A stretch of DNA of 64,000 nt, taken from contig NC_049987.1 in the NCBI RefSeq assembly GCF_000003815.2, forward strand, positions 4,525,146 through 4,589,145, written 5' to 3'. The notes under the pieces were generated by a model. That model was not told the DNA's origin and did not search any database. It worked only from the letters and a program-made list of their open reading frames with translations. Of this stretch, positions 20,527 through 31,999 are shown piece by piece; the stretch's first letter is position 1; every line of letters starts with the position of its first letter. The DNA is from Branchiostoma floridae. Its lineage: Eukaryota > Chordata > Leptocardii > Amphioxiformes > Branchiostomatidae. Position numbers and translations under genes: made by a program.

Positions 20527-23500
20527 ATGGAGGCGGTTCTATCCCGAATCTTCAAGTATTCACAGATTTTTAGTTCGTCACGCTTCATCCTAGGCCATCA
20601 CAGGTAAAAATTACATATCTAGCTAAACATTTAAGCAGTAAAATTTACTGAAAATTATCTCTCTCGCGGTCCGCGATTTTAGATGTTATAATTTGAAGGT
20701 GACCTTTATTTTTACAGCAATCTCTGATACCCTAAGAGCTCTTATAATTTCACCAAGGTGTATAACGTCAAGGTGTATAACGTTAACGTTATTTATATTT
20801 TCGGTGCGTGTGTTAAAAATTGTGTCACATCATAATTGAAAACGAAGGTCAAGTTTGATAATGGCCCCCTAGCGACTTTCTATGATACTGCTGCATATTA
20901 AACTTCTGGTTTTGGTATCTTTATAGCTGTGAGGCATGTGCTTAGGACCCTTTTCTCAGCATTCACAGCATCTACTACGGTTTAGGGTAGGTGTTTTGCA
21001 TATTAAGACCACACAATTAGCCCTTTTTACAGTAACACACTGGATGTGTTCTAATACTAGTATTATGTTCATCATCATTATCATCACTACTATCACCATC
21101 ATCATTATTACTCAACACATTGGGTACTGTCTATGGCACCCAGGCTTCAAATACACCCGATATATTACTCTCATGTTACTGTCATTGATTAACCTTTAAC
21201 GTATCACTTTTTGCAGATTTGTTTATAAGAAGTTCCTCGGACCTACAACCACTACAACACACCGGCTCTTTTCCACCAGCGATAGAACCAACAGAAGCAA
21301 GATGGCCGCTTGCAGCACGAGCCCCGCCATTGTGAGTCGTATCATGCGTCCTGACGATGCCAACATCAGCGGGAACGTACACGGTGGGAATATCCTGAAA
21401 ATGATAGAGGAGGCAGGGATTATCGTCAGTGCACGACACTGTAACCGTTACGCCGGGGAGGAGGGGCGAGATCCATGCGCTCCCAGTCTGGTCAGGATAG
21501 AGAGGATGGACTTCCTGCAGCCAATGCATGTGGGTATGTACATTTCAGATATTACCTATCACTGTATCAGACATGAGTACGTTTCCTCTCACTGCTCTAC
21601 TATCCATCCATCCATCCATCCATCCATCCATCCATCCATCCATCCATATATACATTCTTGTTTCCTCTTAGGCCATGTTGATTTGATTATATGGATGACA
21701 TCCTCCGGGAACTCCAAAACTGATGCGAGCGAGCGAATAAAAAAAAAAGTTTGGCCAAAAAAAAAGTTGCCTTCAGTATGAAATCAAAGTGGACAGGAAG
21801 GTTGAACATAGGACTCTGGACCTGAATTTTCTGTACTGGTACCTCCCCAACCAACAATAGATTTTTTTTCTTTCCGTCCTTTCACATTCTTATTCTTTGA
21901 CTTTAGATTCATTTTGGCATTCTATATATGGCATTAGTTATCTGTTTTCTAATACTTTTTTTTCAATCTACGGCATATTTGTGCTCATTTTAAAGCTGCT
22001 TTGCACAATTTATTGTGTAGCTGAAAACTTTTTTTTTTTTGGAAATGGCCGAAAATTGGTGCGAGCGCGGATGTCATCCATATAATCAAATCAACGTGGC
22101 CTTACTGCTGTACCATTCTTTCACTCATTCAGTCATTCATTCATTCATTCTCCTTCCTTTTTGAAGTTTTTCCCTTCGTTTTCTTTCCATCTTACTTTCT
22201 TTTCTCTATCTCTTTCTTTCCTTTTCCGTTTTCCTTTCCTTTCTTCCTGGCTTTCCTTCTTTTTTCTTTCCTCCTTCCTTCTGTCTTTCTTTTCGTCTTT
22301 CTTTCTCTCATGGAAGGAATTTATTCAAAGCATTCATCAAAAACATTTAAGGCTAATCTGTAGGAATTTGGGCTGTATTGTGGGATTTGGAATGACCCAT
22401 GATACCACATAAATCTTTGCCAGTGTCACAATTACTCTTGAACTTGATGTCTATCCTTCTTTTCCTCCCAAGGTGAAGTTGCCCAGCTTCAGGCAGATGT
22501 GACCTTCACTGGACCACATTCCCTGGAAGTCCAGGTCCAGGTGTGGGCAGAGAATGTCCTCAAAGGGAGCAAACGGCTGACCAACAAGGCAACTCTCTGG
22601 TACGTTCCCTTGAGTATAGAGAATTAAAATGTTACACATGACAAATGGATAAGAGTTCTGGTGGGGAGCTTTCAGAAGGCTCTTGTCATCTTTCCCTGGA
22701 CAGCCAGAGAACTACGCGGCAGTTATCAGGCTTTTCTTGGGCCCCTAGCAACATGCGCCTTGAGTCTAATACTGTGCTTTACCTTGCCCCTAATGACAAG
22801 TCCCGTAAATTGGATCTACCCGGCCAAGGGAGTGGGCAGCATAGTAACTACTTGGCTGGGTAGATCTGATTTATGGGGTGTGTCGCTTATAATAGGTCAC
22901 GGCTAAACGTACAGTAACCCCCTTGTGATTCTCTGGCTGTCCAGAGTACTGCCATCTTTCTTCAGCTCTGATGTTGCGAGTAGTCACGTGACCTTGGAGT
23001 CAAAGGTCACACGGTCATGTGACATGGTTGTGCTGTCGATGGGGGAAAGGCTGTGGCAGTCTTGGTCATTGTTTATGATGGGTATAGGGATCTGATGTTT
23101 AATTACCATGTTCAAACTGTCTGCTCTCTCTGTCAAGAATTGTAATCTCTGGTTTTTGTGTGCCTTCATGCATGTGTTGTGCAACTGCAGATGAGTCTCT
23201 CTTGTGCTCAGTGAGCCTCATATTGAGATCCTTTCTGTCTCACTCGCTTAGGTACGTTCCCGTTTCTACCGTGGCCAAAACCACGGCCGAGGTGCCGCCC
23301 ATGATCTACCAATCAGAGCAGGCAAGGGAGGCAGGACAGAAAAGGTACAACTACCAAAAGGCGCACAGGGAAGAGAACGACCACGTGGTGAATAACGTCC
23401 TGGAACATCGACCAATGGACTTGGAGGCCGAGCTCCACACCGTACGGTACTCGCAGTCTTCTCTCATCCACCTGGTGAACCCGTCCGACACCGCCATCCA

Positions 23501-25480
23501 CGGGTTCGCCACCGGAGGCTGCACGTTGAAGCTGATGGACGAAGTGGCGGGCATCACGGCGGCACGGCACGCCAGGAACCGCGTGGTGACGGCATCCATC
23601 GAGGCGACCAACTTCCACCGCCCGGTACCGAAGGGCAGCCTGATGCACCTGATGGGCAGGATAACCTTCACTAGTGGCAGGTGAGATTTGAACACAGCTG
23701 GACTATAAAGAGAAAATTATTAAGGCTTATTCCAGACATGCAGTTTGATTCTAGAAAACCTTATTCGTTTGTACATATATAGATTTACAAAAGAATTGTA
23801 AGTATGATACTAGTATATACTGGGTAAAAGGATCAAATGGATTTTATGTAGGTTGCATTTAGATGTATCCAGGCTAAGGTTCCCAGAAGTCTGACTCAAA
23901 ATTCTGGCTCAGGTTCCAGAATTCTGGTTGGAGAATTGGCTTTGTCACTGGTGACACCTATTTACAATCTACTTGGCACTGGTGGGCCCTACAAATGGAT
24001 GTCGGATGGCCTAGAAAAACGTGTCATGGTAGCGCCTGGAAAGTTAAGCCACATGAAAAGTCAAGAACGGTGTTCAAGTTTAGCGTCCAGCCACTCCAAA
24101 GCACCATCCCACCACTGCCACCAATGTAACTTATAGACCATGCAAGCACACAGCTTTACATGTACACAATGACTATCAGAAGTAAACTGACTTTAATGAA
24201 AGAGGGGAATGGATTGGTTGTTAGAATATCGACGACCGGACCCGTTCGCAGTAACGTATGAGTACTATGAGTTCTACTACTTAACATATACATTTTGTAT
24301 ATACTAGTTGCCATTCATTAATCCTCCTACCTGTCCAGAACAATGGAGATCGAGGTAGCTGTGGATCTGGAGAAGATGACCAATGGGGGAGTGACAAAGG
24401 AGCGAGCAGTAACATCGTTTTTTACATTTGTGTCACTGGGGGCTGATGGGAAACCCATTCCCATCCCTCCTCTCAAGGTAAGGGGATGACTGTATTACTA
24501 GTATTTAAGAGTTTATGACACTAAAATGATGATGATGATGATGATGAATGACACTAAAACACAACATTATCTTATTACTGTAAATGCATTATAAGTTTGC
24601 GGGAATTTAACTTCACGGTAGCGGGAAAAAGGACTTTTTGCAGTGGTTTTATTTTTGCGGTAACACCATAGACTGTGCACAGTCTAATACCATAATAGAA
24701 AAATGTTAGCGGTGGTTTTAAGTTTGTGGTGAAGTGGTCACCGCAAAAACCGCGAATATTAATCCACCCCGAACATTTCTGCATTTACAGTACACGTAAC
24801 AAGAATAGTATCACTCCACGTTAACACCAAATAGCACCCAGTAATGTTGTTGAAACTTGTGCCATCAAATATCATTCTTCAGACTCAAGATTTTGTTGCA
24901 AGGTAATCCAATTTGTTGCAAGGTAATCCAATGATAACTAGTTTGGAAACTAGCACCATGGTTCATGAAAAACATATTTTTGATAAGCAAACAGCACCTA
25001 ATTATTGTGATTTTCTGTAGTTGTTAACTTAATACAATATATCCTTCTGCTGCTTTTCAAAGGCACTTTTTTGTTGAGCTGTGACGTTATTGACAGACAT
25101 AGTTGGATTACCTTGCAACAAAATGTTCAAGTGTGAAGAAGGATTTTTTCGATGATGCAATGTTCAACAACAGGAGAAGCCTTATAGGGTGTATATGTGG
25201 TGCAAACGTGCATGTCTTTGCCTTGCATTTGGTTGATCGTGACTTAAATTACTGGCCAAGTCATACCAAAGACATATACATACTGCCTTTTCTACATTGA
25301 GGGGGTGAAGCCTGCTATCTCTGATTGCCTTGTCAGATTCATACATGTATCCCTCCATTTATTTAGGTTACAACAGAAGATGAGAGGTCCAGATTTGAAG
25401 AAGGAAAAGGAAGATATGAGAGAAAGAAAGCTGAGAGAGAAGCTGCCAAGAAAATGGAGACACAGATCCATCAAAATTAG
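20527..25480 (+). CDS. acot7: Cytosolic/mitochondrial acyl-CoA thioesterase 7 (double hotdog), complete, 6 exons
   Basis: ACOT7 hydrolyses long-chain acyl-CoAs to free fatty acid and CoA. Coding exons: 20527-20603, 21217-21533, 22473-22599, 23252-23680, 24339-24477 and 25367-25480, joining in frame to 400 residues. The first hotdog domain carries [17 protein letters not shown] (Asn79, equivalent to catalytic Asn24 of mouse Acot7). The second carries [13 protein letters not shown] and [13 protein letters not shown] (Asp270, equivalent to Asp213). The linker [12 protein letters not shown] and C-terminal tail [18 protein letters not shown] match the vertebrate protein. The first ~50 residues are rich in R, S, F and L without acidic residues, a likely mitochondrial presequence; an internal Met at 55 (MAACSTS) could give a cytosolic form. 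Oddities: second-domain HGFVHGG of vertebrates is HGFATGG, and intron 3 begins with a copy of the next exon's first bases. AATAAA at 26142. Confidence 0.96.
21600..21650. repeat. (ATCC)n microsatellite
   Basis: About eleven ATCC units in ACOT7 intron 2. A shorter ATC-rich tract lies at 21061-21110 in intron 1. Confidence 0.95.
21671..22101. mobile_element. 431-bp GGCC-ended MITE, TTA target duplication
   Basis: Inverted ends GGCCATGTTGATTTGATTAT and the complement are flanked on both sides by TTA (21668-21670, 22102-22104). Same family as 2069-4263. In ACOT7 intron 2. No coding frame. Confidence 0.85.
24578..24790. mobile_element. 213-bp foldback element CTGTAAATGCA..TGCATTTACAG, TA duplication
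   Basis: Inverted ends CTGTAAATGCA are flanked by TA on both sides, with a Tc1/mariner-like TA target. The arms contain complementary words such as 'gcgggaattt / aaccgcgaat' and 'gcagtggttt / aaaaccgc'. In ACOT7 intron 5. Confidence 0.8.
24891..25124. repeat. ~230-bp foldback repeat in ACOT7 intron 5
   Basis: TTTTGTTGCAAGGTAATCCA at 24891-24910, repeated once in direct orientation immediately after, faces its complement TGGATTACCTTGCAACAAAA at about 25103-25122. Confidence 0.7.
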
Positions 25481-27875: not shown

Positions 27876-28410
27876 GGCCACAACAAGTAAATTTTATGGA
27901 TGACATGCTCTGCAGACTGCAAAAATAATGAGATAGGGCGAAAAAAAACAAGATGGGTGAAAAAAACAAGATGACTAAATTTTCAAAATAGACACCATAA
28001 ACGTTGTCAAAAGAGTTGAAGTGACAAAACATGGTAGCACTGACAACAAATCATTCATTCCTGTATTCAAGAAGTGAACTGGTGTAGTAAAAGTGAAACT
28101 AGTGTGGTGGGCTGATATTACTTACCAAGTTGGCAACTACACTCGTAACGTTACACATCATGACTTCCAAAGTGGTGCCACTTTTACAACTATCCAACTT
28201 GTTTCACTTCTATAACTACAGCCATGGTTACCTCGCCAATGTTACATCTACAACTATAATCATTAGGCTACAACACAACATACTTTCCGATTTTGGTACT
28301 TTCTCGTCATGTTGACCATCTCCGAAGAAGAAAAAAAATTTTTTTTTCTGAAATCAGGCGAAAAATAATGAGCGCGCGGATGTCATCCATAAAATTTACT
28401 TGCTGTGGCC
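27876..28410. mobile_element. 535-bp GGCC-ended MITE, TTA target duplication
   Basis: Ends GGCCACAACAAGTAAATTTT and its complement are flanked by TTA on both sides (27873-27875, 28411-28413). Close relative of 8909-9416. No coding frame. Confidence 0.85.
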
Positions 28411-28413
28411 TTA

Positions 28414-29183
28414 CAACAATGTTCCCAAACCTGAAAAACCAGGTCCCTTGTGTTACATATACACTGCAGGGATATCTGTATCGGGTCGTACCTAAAATCG
28501 AAACATTTTGGTCCTCTTCAACAAGCTGATTGAAGTGAGTCATTTCAATACTGTCTTTGTTACAATAGAAGACTAAGTAATCGGTAAAAAGATTTTCTTG
28601 TTGCACAGTTCATAATTAAAGTATGTAAAAAAATAACGAAGGCCTGGTTAACAACGCTGGGAAAGTGTGCTTCAGTTTGTAATTTCTCTACCTGTAGCTT
28701 ATGTGATTGCTAAAGAGACGATACTATATGTATCAAGAACACACGTCTTTCGTCACCCTTCCCTTAGAAGTTGACAATAGATATATTCTTTCGCAATCCG
28801 AAAATCGCGTTGTGTTGCAACATTTGAGACTGGAGCTCATAGCCTTTGGCGAAGTAGACAAGGACGCAGAATTCTCTTGAAGCGTGTCCTCTTGTCCTTG
28901 GAACGCCTGCTGACAATAAAGGGTGGACTCATTGGAGTAAATAGCCAGTCACATAGTATATAACAGTCGTTGATGAATACAAGAAAAGTTTTGGTGCAAA
29001 GACAGAGTACCTGGCGTTGATTGAGTAATTGTAAGATGCATATGACGATTGACCATATCATGGATGACTTTCAACTTTCTAACACATAGGTTGGTGAGTT
29101 TCACACAGTTCGACAGACCTAGAACCCAAGCATCGACTTGACTTGACGAGTCTGAAGACAACACTAACGAAGAACAAGGAAAG
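28414..29183. other. Upstream region of the acyltransferase gene, no gene seen
   Basis: No ketosynthase or other coding segment recognised on either strand. A stop codon lies in frame 16 codons before the acyltransferase ATG, with a possible acceptor (gacgag) between them, so a short 5' exon cannot be excluded. Confidence 0.4.
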
Positions 29184-30476
29184 ATGTACATTGTGGCTGT
29201 ATCAGCAAAGACATGGCAATCCTTGAAGCTGTCAGTGGAGGACCTGATCACACATTTGGAGCAAACCCCGGACATATCACTTGAACAACTCTCCTACACA
29301 TCTCTACTAAAAAGAACGCACCACAATTTCAGGTTAGCGGTGTCAGGTAGCTCTGTTGAGGACATCAAGCAATCTTTAGAGAACGGCGTTGCGGGTATAG
29401 AAGGAGCAGTACGCGCAAGGACAATCAGACGGAGGAGTGGTTGTAGGGAAGACTCAGAGGTTGACAAACATGTCATTTTTGTTTTCTGCGGACAAGGATC
29501 GTTGTGGGATGGAATGTGCCTGGAACTGATAAACAAAGAGCCTGTATTCAGGAGAAAGCTGTCTGAAGTCGATTGCCTACTTCGTCAGTACGTTGAGTGG
29601 TCTCTCCTTGATAAGCTATCAGAGAAAGAAGACTTTCAAGTCCCGTTGGTAGCACAAGCTATTGTTTTCACCACCCAGGTCGCACTGTTTGCACTTTGGC
29701 AGTCGTGGGGCATCACACCAGATACCATTATCGGTTGTTCAGCTGGCGAAGTGGCTGCAGCGCATTGTTCCGGCACCCTGTCACTACCGGAGGCCGTACG
29801 TGTCATTTACCATAGGGGTCGTCTGCAAAATGAAGTCACTGGCGGGAAGATGCTTATTGTCGGGAATCTCCCGGTAAAGAAGGTGCTAGACTTGTGCAGT
29901 AAAGTCTCGGGTAAAGTTGACTTGGCTGCCGAAAACAGTGCCTCCTCCTGTACACTATCGGGTGATGATGATGCAATAGACGAGTTGCATGAAGTTCTGA
30001 GGACGATGAACGAGAGCGATATGGCCGGCCAACTGTTTCTGAGAGAGCTAGATCTGCCTGCCTGTCATAGCCACCGGATGGAGCCGATCCGAAAAGAACT
30101 AGAATCAGCGTTGAGAGATCTACGTGGCCAGCTGCCTACTGTAGAACTGTACTCAACTGTCACAGGGAAGAGAGCTACGAAGGAGGACTTTGTAACTGGA
30201 GAATACTGGGGGAGAAACGTTAGGCAGCCGGTGATGTTCAGCAGCGCGATATCAGAAGCCTTGAACCGTGAAAAACGAAACATCGTTGTTGAGGTCGGTC
30301 CCAAGGCTTTTTATAGGACTAACATCAAGCAAATTGCATCGGATGAGTCTGAGGTGATGTTGACCCACGTGGCGTCCATCAAACCAAACCAAGAGCATCA
30401 AACCATCCTGCGCAGTCTTTGCGATTTGTATGAAGTCGGTTTGATGCCGAACTGGGACGCTTTCTTCGTGAAATGA
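29184..30476 (+). CDS. Stand-alone type I PKS/FAS-type acyltransferase (AT) with KS-AT linker
   Basis: An intact single-exon frame of 430 codons. Residues 1-90 look like the KS-to-AT linker of type I polyketide and fatty acid synthases (VAVSAKTWQSL, SLEQLSYTSLLKRTHHNFRLAV). Residues ~96-400 are an AT domain: oxyanion motif GQGSLWDGM at 103, nucleophile loop GCSAGEVAAAH (Ser186), Arg211 in YHRGRLQ and His295 in PACHSHRMEP. The spacings Ser+25=Arg and Ser+109=His match malonyl-CoA:ACP transacylases, and the Arg predicts a carboxylated extender such as malonyl-CoA. The C-terminus (YEVGLMPNW) is where an AT domain normally ends. The usual GHSxG is GCSAG here. No KS, KR, ACP or TE lies beside it. 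It may act in trans on a separate carrier protein, or be a truncated PKS still open by chance. AATAAA at about 30846. Confidence 0.85.
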   Translation: MYIVAVSAKTWQSLKLSVEDLITHLEQTPDISLEQLSYTSLLKRTHHNFRLAVSGSSVEDIKQSLENGVAGIEGAVRARTIRRRSGCREDSEVDKHVIFVFCGQGSLWDGMCLELINKEPVFRRKLSEVDCLLRQYVEWSLLDKLSEKEDFQVPLVAQAIVFTTQVALFALWQSWGITPDTIIGCSAGEVAAAHCSGTLSLPEAVRVIYHRGRLQNEVTGGKMLIVGNLPVKKVLDLCSKVSGKVDLAAENSASSCTLSGDDDAIDELHEVLRTMNESDMAGQLFLRELDLPACHSHRMEPIRKELESALRDLRGQLPTVELYSTVTGKRATKEDFVTGEYWGRNVRQPVMFSSAISEALNREKRNIVVEVGPKAFYRTNIKQIASDESEVMLTHVASIKPNQEHQTILRSLCDLYEVGLMPNWDAFFVK

Positions 30477-30685
30477 ATGTAACCTTTATCCGCGGGATGA
30501 CCTATATCCGTTGCTTTCCATAACAGGTTATCTAGGGACATGAAGTCCACGGAAGGTGGTTTCAAACTGTATCATTTTGAAAACATTTCAGTTTGAAAAC
30601 GCAATACGTCGACTTGATTAGATATTCAGAAGTACCCTGTTTTTAAAACCAACGGATATTGGTTACCCGGCGGATAAAGGTGAAC
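30477..30685. mobile_element. ~209-bp MITE abutting the acyltransferase stop codon
   Basis: Right end 'cggataaaggtgaac' followed by TA. The left end is 'gtaacctttatccgcgggat', lacking the first ~16 bases (GTTCACC...) seen in the relative at 33482. The left edge begins within about 3 bases of the stop codon TGA at 30474-30476. Member of the family that also forms the outer element at 33482-37484 and a fragment at 39154-39200. Confidence 0.75.
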
Positions 30686-30845
30686 TATGGTTACACTCCT
30701 ACGGACGTGTCGCGTTAACAGTTTGCTCCAAAGCCACTGTGGTTCGAAACCGAGACCGAGAAAGCTGTAGCCTGTGGACGAAAATAGGTAGCGCACGACA
30801 TTGGTATTTTATTGTTGGTGTACATTATTACAAGCAAAGGTTCAC

Positions 30846-30851
30846 AATAAA
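30846..30851 (+). terminator. Probable polyadenylation signal of the acyltransferase gene
   Basis: AATAAA 370 bp downstream of the stop codon, beyond the MITE, so the MITE would form most of the 3' UTR. Confidence 0.5.
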
Positions 30852-31999
30852 GAAATGCGTTAATCCATTGCATTTCTCTGTCTGTTTCTTCACATGGACA
30901 AATTACCTTAAATTGGAATTTATTCCAACACAACAGCGGTATTAGTACTAAAAACACAGTTAAAAAGGAGTATGAATGCTGGCTTATTCTTTGTAAAAGC
31001 TATTCAGTTCATTGTGTACATTGATGCATTCATGTGTTGAAGAAAACAACTTATCTTGAATTATAAATTTGCATACATATCGCCAATAAGCGCGAGATAG
31101 GCGTTTTTTATTGTTCAGCGAATCATATTTTCTATTTATCAATACAAAATCATATCTTGTTTTACTCAATACTGTTCCAACGATTCCAAAACAACTAAAC
31201 ATTACAAACTATTATGAGGATTGTAAGAATATCTCAAGCTAAAAATTGACATCTGAACTCGCCAAAAGGATATCTATGTGAAATTTGACGCATTTGTTGT
31301 GACATACCTATATTTGTCAGTTCTTTGGATAATTTGACGGTGTCCTTCTAGCTTACAATGTACGTACTGTCGATTTCATTGATGTAACGTTAAAACTTAT
31401 AAGTACAGTCTGCAAAAAAAGTTCTTAAACAGAAATTTACTGATCCACTGCTTCGTGGAGGTTTCAACTTTAGTGAAACCATTTAAAGGCTTAGAAAAAG
31501 TTGAAAAATAGTAATTTGTTTTGTCAGGCATATCTAAATGAGTAAATGAATAATAGCTACCAACTCGCTCGAAACATGTTCAAATCACGCCCACTTTATT
31601 CCTAATTCCATCCGTTGTTCTAATATTTACCTCGATTCATTTTGTCTCTCCTTAATCCTTTGTAGTTTTAAAACATGTCAGGTATTGTATCATCAATGGC
31701 AATATAAAGTGAAATAAGAAAACATTTTGCAAAAGCATGGACTGCTGATGCCCTCCAGGCAAAAAACAACGCCTTTATTGATAAGCAGAAAAGCTGCACC
31801 TTTATTACATGGATATTACAATGAGATCAAAAAGAAAATGAAAGCAAAACGATTTGGATTAGTGGCAGTTAACATGCTTTGTAAAATGGTTACAAATCAT
31901 TAAATATATTCAATTGGTTTAAAACTACAGATCATGCTATCAACACAAACGACGCAGTAAGTACTTTGAAAGTTCTAAAGAAACGGATAATTGGCATTT

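Follow-up and report, generated by a model that had tools for sequence, protein, structure and literature searches.

A stand-alone type I acyltransferase gene in amphioxus, likely derived from the giant exon of a polyketide synthase

Can an acyltransferase (AT) of the type I polyketide synthase (PKS) kind stand free of its synthase in an animal genome, and what would such a protein do? The question is raised by one open reading frame, here called SA1, in a 64,000-nucleotide stretch of the Branchiostoma floridae genome (the window, C9:4525146-4589145, in an assembly of 513 Mb and 431 contigs; coordinates without a contig name are window positions). The original prediction described SA1 as an intact AT with its KS-AT linker at 29184-30476, with no other PKS domain nearby, and proposed a role like that of the trans-acting ATs of bacteria.

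The open frame and its relatives

The coordinates of the frame proved exact, and its domains and active-site residues are as follows (the parent is P1, a synthase of the same genome described below).

29184..30476, plus strand: SA1, a stand-alone acyltransferase ORF of 430 aa comprising KS-AT linker and AT; stop codon at 30474-30476
29184..29474, plus strand: KS-AT linker (flanking subdomain) and connector, from Pfam CurL-like_PKS_C (52 bits) and alignment
29475..30404, plus strand: Acyl_transf_1 domain, Pfam PF00698 (179 bits)
29487..29498, plus strand: CGQG oxyanion loop, residues 102-105 (GGQG in the parent), with Gln104 kept
29733..29750, plus strand: GCSAGE nucleophile elbow (GHSVGE in the parent) with Cys185, Ser186 and Ala187, from alignment
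29814..29816, plus strand: Arg211, the carboxylate-binding Arg, kept; invariant in one alignment and nearly so in another
29934..29936, plus strand: Asn251, kept, at the alignment position of the Asn described as pairing with the GHSxG His (role: PMC4186864)
30063..30068, plus strand: Cys294-His295; catalytic His kept, with one codon lost and a Cys gained directly before His295

The Acyl_transf_1 score exceeds the Pfam cut-off (179 bits vs 32.7), and the protein ends with the AT domain. From stop to stop the frame spans 29142-30476 (444 aa), preceded by an in-frame stop seen by eye at 29139-29141. Its ATG corresponds to an internal Met of P1 (QGKMYIVAVSA), so the SA1 protein would start at the first linker strand; the first strand predicted by AlphaFold2 covers residues 2-8. 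The AlphaFold2 model, built from an input alignment of 30 sequences (10 amphioxus and 20 of 37 bacterial loci), reached a pLDDT of 90.0 and a pTM of 0.90, and its top PDB matches in Foldseek are PKS AT crystal structures, so that, judged by its predicted fold, the frame is more than a product of chance. Among sequences with solved structures, AT domains of type I PKSs come nearest (E 1.4e-49), and the match to a free malonyl-ACP transacylase in the PDB is weaker (5.6e-20). Whole-genome profile searches, in which only the best candidates were scored, placed 0 of 35 KS matches and 0 of 14 ACP matches inside the window, in line with the claimed absence of other PKS domains; nearby KS or ACP exons, which would have spoken against the original prediction, were likewise not found in it. 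As a 430-aa ORF in a window without such matches, SA1 shares by its sequence the free-standing gene structure of trans-AT acyltransferases, and the sequence evidence supports it as a genuine type I AT gene that stands alone. Upstream of SA1, on the same strand, lie two 4HBT thioesterase frames (21200-21778 and 23103-23681), which we take to be an ACOT7-like gene at 21200-23681. A phage tblastn comparison gave seven records below 60% identity (23-28% in the five matches listed) with no annotation, and has no bearing on the locus.

A protein search with SA1 found 16 places in the genome; the published count of pks genes in B. floridae is 13 (PMC4604110, in excerpt). One is SA2 (C9:14911479-14912765, minus strand; 88% protein identity to SA1), a second intact stand-alone copy with its own 479-aa frame and also with GCSAGE. 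The P1 AT at C9:14923157 is 87% identical to SA1 over 430 aa and lies inside a 2370-aa frame (C9:14922569-14929678) that encodes a KS-AT-DH-KR-ACP-AMP-binding synthase, its AT having GHSVGE. P2 (C5), P3 (C4) and P4 (C9:12.86 Mb) are 78%, 61% and 54% identical to SA1. The Pfam scan of synthase frames covered P1 and P4 in two pieces each, and found KS-C, AT, DH, KR, ACP and AMP-binding in both frames, the ACP of P4 scoring below cut-off. SA2 lies ~10 kb from the P1 AT, head-to-head with P1, whose first KS match is at C9:14917396, so that shared regulation is possible; SA1 lies 10 Mb off on the same 25-Mb contig. The synthases also differ among themselves: the P3 KS (L013, C4:19506001) has GTGTPDWDTVEAS where P1, P2 and P4 have GTGTPVGDPVEA, and the P4 AT (L014, C9:12860207-12861436) has FCGMG for FxGQG, with the oxyanion Gln changed to Met and GHSVGE intact.

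The altered active site

Ser186, Arg211 and His295, all claimed as retained, are present, giving SA1 the Ser-His dyad and carboxylate Arg of type I PKS ATs, and the elbow indeed reads GCSAGE in place of GHSxG, a motif that is usual, not required, for the Pfam family. The accompanying claim of canonical spacing is not quite right: the distance between Ser186 and His295 is 109 in SA1 and 110 in the parent and SA2, a codon having been deleted before His295: the sequence before the catalytic His is KAAYHS in P1, PAAYHS in SA2 and PACHS in SA1. Among the 15 amphioxus AT places that bear the elbow motif, 13 have GHSxGE and two, the stand-alone SA1 and SA2, have GCSAGE; this count omits a linker-like match (L024) and six PF00698 matches covering at most profile positions 1-78. 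GHS is found in 37/37 bacterial loci, which were chosen by patterns that did not include the GHSxG His residue. GCSAG as the ancestral state is ruled out, since P1 to P4 and nine more amphioxus AT places carry GHS.

On the stem leading to SA1 and SA2, GGQGT changed to CGQGS, GHSVG to GCSAG and HSHQ to HSHR; the common ancestor of the two kept Ser186, His295, Arg211 and Gln104. Seven of the 17 stem replacements fall inside catalytic motif windows that make up 42 of 418 columns (p = 0.0006), the five windows being based on published motifs but drawn after the alignment had been seen. Private changes show no excess there (3/20 in SA1, 2/22 in SA2, 1/8 in P1). Replacements to Cys on the three stand-alone branches number 6/59, where 2.8% would be expected (p = 0.006 in a post hoc test), and the resulting active site is Cys-rich, with Cys102 and Cys185 in both proteins plus Cys294 in SA1 or Cys251 in SA2. 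A disulfide or metal site arising from this excess would be speculation, and we build nothing on it. Position 251 is Asn in SA1; in SA2, Cys at 185, the GHSxG His position, and at 251, the position of its described Asn partner, puts a Cys-Cys pair in place of the His-Asn hydrogen bond.

Search for partners

If SA1 were a true trans-acting loader, it would supply malonyl or methylmalonyl to AT-deficient or slow modules, as bacterial trans-ATs do. Several of its properties would suit such a role, including a folded linker (predicted) on a stand-alone AT, an intact Ser-His dyad and Arg, and the purifying selection described below; furthermore, a bacterial malonyl-specific AT retained transacylation when its GHSxG His was changed to Ala (PMC4186864, in excerpt). 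Its clients are harder to find. The 35 KS matches, many of them single exons, were grouped to loci by nearness (best candidates only), and each PKS-type KS locus has an AT match except C1:34262584. This PKS has the first part of an AT only, followed by a 100-N assembly gap over the AT region; the lack of a full AT would favour a loader, though the gap sits exactly there. The KS and AT genome searches thus revealed no clearly AT-less synthase, the sole candidate being gapped over its AT, and the bacterial-style trans-AT system that had been proposed is not borne out. In addition, the GHSxG His that SA1 has lost is described as a strictly conserved residue of ATs (PMC11775670, in excerpt) and is present in all 37 bacterial loci. 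We regard a loader as doubtful, and rank it second after the reading favoured below.

Further details of the KS and ACP matches deserve mention. The C1 family PKS with the gap at its AT site (L056, C1:34264499-34272319), which would otherwise look AT-less, has a frame end that appears NRPS-like by eye. In two C1 family PKS genes, at C1:15893947-15898023 and C1:28850150-28854262, a pair of N-terminal KS exons stands ahead of a single KS and AT; these doubled exons may serve as alternative first exons or be what is left of another gene. A KS match without AT nearby at C7:7556463 (467-aa frame) is presumably the mitochondrial KS. Two of the 14 ACP matches, at C4:9694113 and C7:4474692, sit in short frames that are not near PKS loci.

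Origin by duplication and selection since

The flanks of SA1 hold the following features.

28406..28857, plus strand: upstream flank common to SA1 and SA2, not matched at the P1 AT; first part repetitive
29088..29089, plus strand: AG of a candidate 3' splice acceptor that would end an intron in the 5' UTR (ttctaacacatag), by eye
30482..30681, plus strand: MITE-like insertion whose terminal inverted repeats measure 49 nt (82% complementary); neither SA2 nor P1 has it at this point
30694..30771, plus strand: remnant of parent post-AT coding sequence, now past the stop; 97% to SA2, 88% to P1
30776..30941, plus strand: 3' region common to SA1 and SA2 only (89%), with AATAAA at 30846-30851 by eye

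P1 and SA2 match over 1506 bp of DNA (88.4%), inverted and ~10 kb apart, wholly within the P1 giant exon. The P1 piece copied (~1.5 kb) runs from the KS end through KS-AT linker and AT into the first part of the post-AT linker, and SA2 keeps a KS tail ahead of the linker and ten residues past the AT. The SA1/SA2 match extends over 1340 bp (89.6%); inside the ORF, gaps among SA1, SA2 and P1 measure 3, 6 or 9 nt. A clade of SA1 and SA2 is ahead of the other two topologies by ~61 lnL units (KH p 0.0018 and 0.0026) and is backed by 33 sites, vs 15 and 10 for the alternatives. Positions 28609-28860 occur at just two places in the genome, SA1 and SA2, with 73% identity, and genome searches gave no match at P1 for them or for 30776-30941. 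Since these flanks are common to SA1 and SA2 and are not in P1, SA1 derives from a gene that already stood alone; the MITE-like insertion starts 5 nt past its stop codon. The P1 AT is the likely source of both copies, and SA1 is, as far as its sequence tells, a duplicate of the AT domain of a giant PKS exon in the same genome, a relationship that the original prediction missed. A retrocopy origin is ruled out, as both ends of the P1-like piece fall within an exon and SA1 has non-coding flanks in common with SA2.

Such a partial duplicate could be a recent gene fragment drifting to loss, its frame open by chance. Codon models (423 columns; SA1, SA2, P1, P2 and P3; custom GY94-type script) give the stand-alone branches jointly an omega of 0.42, vs 0.18 elsewhere, in the synthases (p = 1.6e-5). 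The relaxed dN/dS named beforehand as a refutation is thus seen relative to the synthases, yet omega = 1 is rejected for these branches jointly (p = 5.9e-7) and for the SA1 branch (omega 0.277, p = 2.6e-6), as it is for the SA2 branch (omega 0.475, p = 0.014). For SA1 the rejection holds whichever of the three topologies is used (p = 1.9e-5, 1.7e-4 and 1.9e-3). On the SA1-SA2 stem omega is 0.91 and does not differ significantly from 1 (p = 0.85); the motif changes may therefore stem from relaxed constraint and not from adaptation. Pairwise, SA1 and SA2 differ by a dN of 0.069 and a dS of 0.242. A neutral 1311-nt frame would stay free of stops with a probability of 0.007 at 157 substitutions, 0.0008 at 222, and 0.21 when just the 45 changes unique to SA1 are counted. 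Non-coding controls between SA1 and SA2 are mixed, with 73% identity in the unique upstream flank and 97% and 89% downstream, around an ORF of 89.6%.

Drift would accord with the near-neutral stem and the weaker constraint than in synthases, with a P1-derived piece that starts and ends within coding sequence, with the absence of Asn251 from SA2, and with downstream non-coding pieces conserved as highly as the ORF. However, it is at odds with the low omega of SA1, with gap lengths divisible by 3 in two copies that are both open, and with an upstream flank more diverged than the ORF, and we consider it improbable. By these models SA1 is under purifying selection since the split, with constraint weaker than in the synthases; taken alone, an origin from the P1 AT together with constraint appears highly probable. 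That SA1 instead belongs to a larger spliced gene with exons outside the ORF is very improbable: a candidate acceptor stands ahead of the ATG (by eye) and P-family KS matches fall in several exon-sized pieces, but the window lacks KS and ACP matches, a stop stands at the AT end, the AATAAA-bearing 3' region is common with SA2, and by eye no pyrimidine-rich acceptor lies between the in-frame stop at 29139-29141 and the ATG.

Proposed role and known systems

We favour the reading that SA1 is a young AT-derived enzyme, trans-acting on malonyl-type thioesters with a leakier, editing-like chemistry; the whole statement, origin included, has in our estimate a probability of about one half. In the proposed sequence of events, the 1.5-kb piece of the P1 giant exon was probably copied, inverted, ~10 kb upstream of the P1 AT, giving SA2 and then SA1. 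Ser186 would receive (methyl)malonyl from CoA or from a carrier protein, with the retained Arg211 holding the carboxylate of the acyl group, and the acyl group would pass to ACP or to water. The GHSxG His is thought to shield the acyl-enzyme, and with Cys in its place a larger hydrolytic share is expected; with Arg kept and His lost, carboxylated acyl groups should still be bound and more of them lost to water. The likeliest role would be auxiliary or editing, in trans on carrier proteins of amphioxus PKS or PKS-NRPS, not that of sole loader of AT-less modules. An argument by analogy against editing is that PksD-type hydrolases are without the Arg, which SA1 retains. More tentatively, amphioxus may, independently and fairly recently, have split the acyltransferase of a cis-AT synthase off into a free family with a Cys-rich site, an editor that removes malonyl-type units and combines an elbow like that of hydrolases with an Arg clamp like that of transferases.

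Published chemistry at the elbow bears on this proposal. The His to Ala exchange mentioned above gave ~7-fold more malonyl hydrolysis (PMC4186864, in excerpt), and bacterial AT-like acyl hydrolases often have G(A/S/V)SL for GHSL; elbow swaps in PksD itself had little effect (PMC11775670, in excerpt). PfaB acyltransferases have a Tyr at the GHSxG His position, and replacing it by His or Leu reduced their activity (PMC12895367, in excerpt), so this elbow position matters. None of the excerpts covered reports a test of Cys at the position. The original prediction suggested that the Cys beside Ser could alter transfer rate or acceptor; the excerpted literature on the GHSxG His points at least as much to hydrolysis or editing as to transfer. 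Methylmalonyl ATs have a [YVW]ASH motif, with a small residue before the His (PMC12895367, in excerpt), and by analogy the small residue before His295 could widen extender choice in SA1. Free helper enzymes acting in trans occur in the nemamide PKS-NRPS pathway of C. elegans; the excerpted account names five, none of them an acyltransferase (PMC8363725).

To our knowledge, the origin of free ATs and AT-like hydrolases from megasynthases has so far been deduced from bacterial lineages that separated very long ago. A single animal genome here contains the domain that is the likely source together with its first and second copies, at 87-90% identity, and the shared active-site changes map to one short branch. 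If active, SA1 would be the first free-standing AT of type I found in an animal, as judged from the open-licence literature searched, which is not proof of absence. If it is an editor, it would correspond in an animal to the trans-AT and acyl-hydrolase helpers of bacteria, and its likely source synthase still lies head-to-head with SA2.

MCAT and FabD, like SA1, have a free-standing malonyltransferase fold. SA1 differs from mitochondrial MCAT and bacterial FabD, for which no linker and FabD as nearest relative would be expected: its type I KS-AT linker is present, and the PDB ranking places it nearer type I PKS ATs. The P1 AT resembles SA1 in linker plus AT, Arg and Ser-His dyad, and differs in having GGQGT, GHSVGE and AAYHS within a 2370-aa frame, whereas SA1 is free and has CGQGS, GCSAGE and PACHS. 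Bacterial stand-alone ATs of the PksC and DisD type share with SA1 the free AT fold, the Ser-His dyad and the Arg; unlike SA1, they conserve GHSxGE and xFHS (PMC11775670, in excerpt) and serve AT-less modules, of which the amphioxus genome searches gave no clear example, whereas SA1 keeps the KS-AT linker and would derive from a cis AT. Finally, the AT-like acyl hydrolases PksD and PedC are free-standing, as is SA1, and often have a small residue for the GHSxG His, a frequent and not a strict feature for which the excerpted source names A, S and V, not the Cys185 of SA1; their Arg is usually changed to Gln or His, an absence called diagnostic (PMC11775670, in excerpt), whereas SA1 keeps Arg211.
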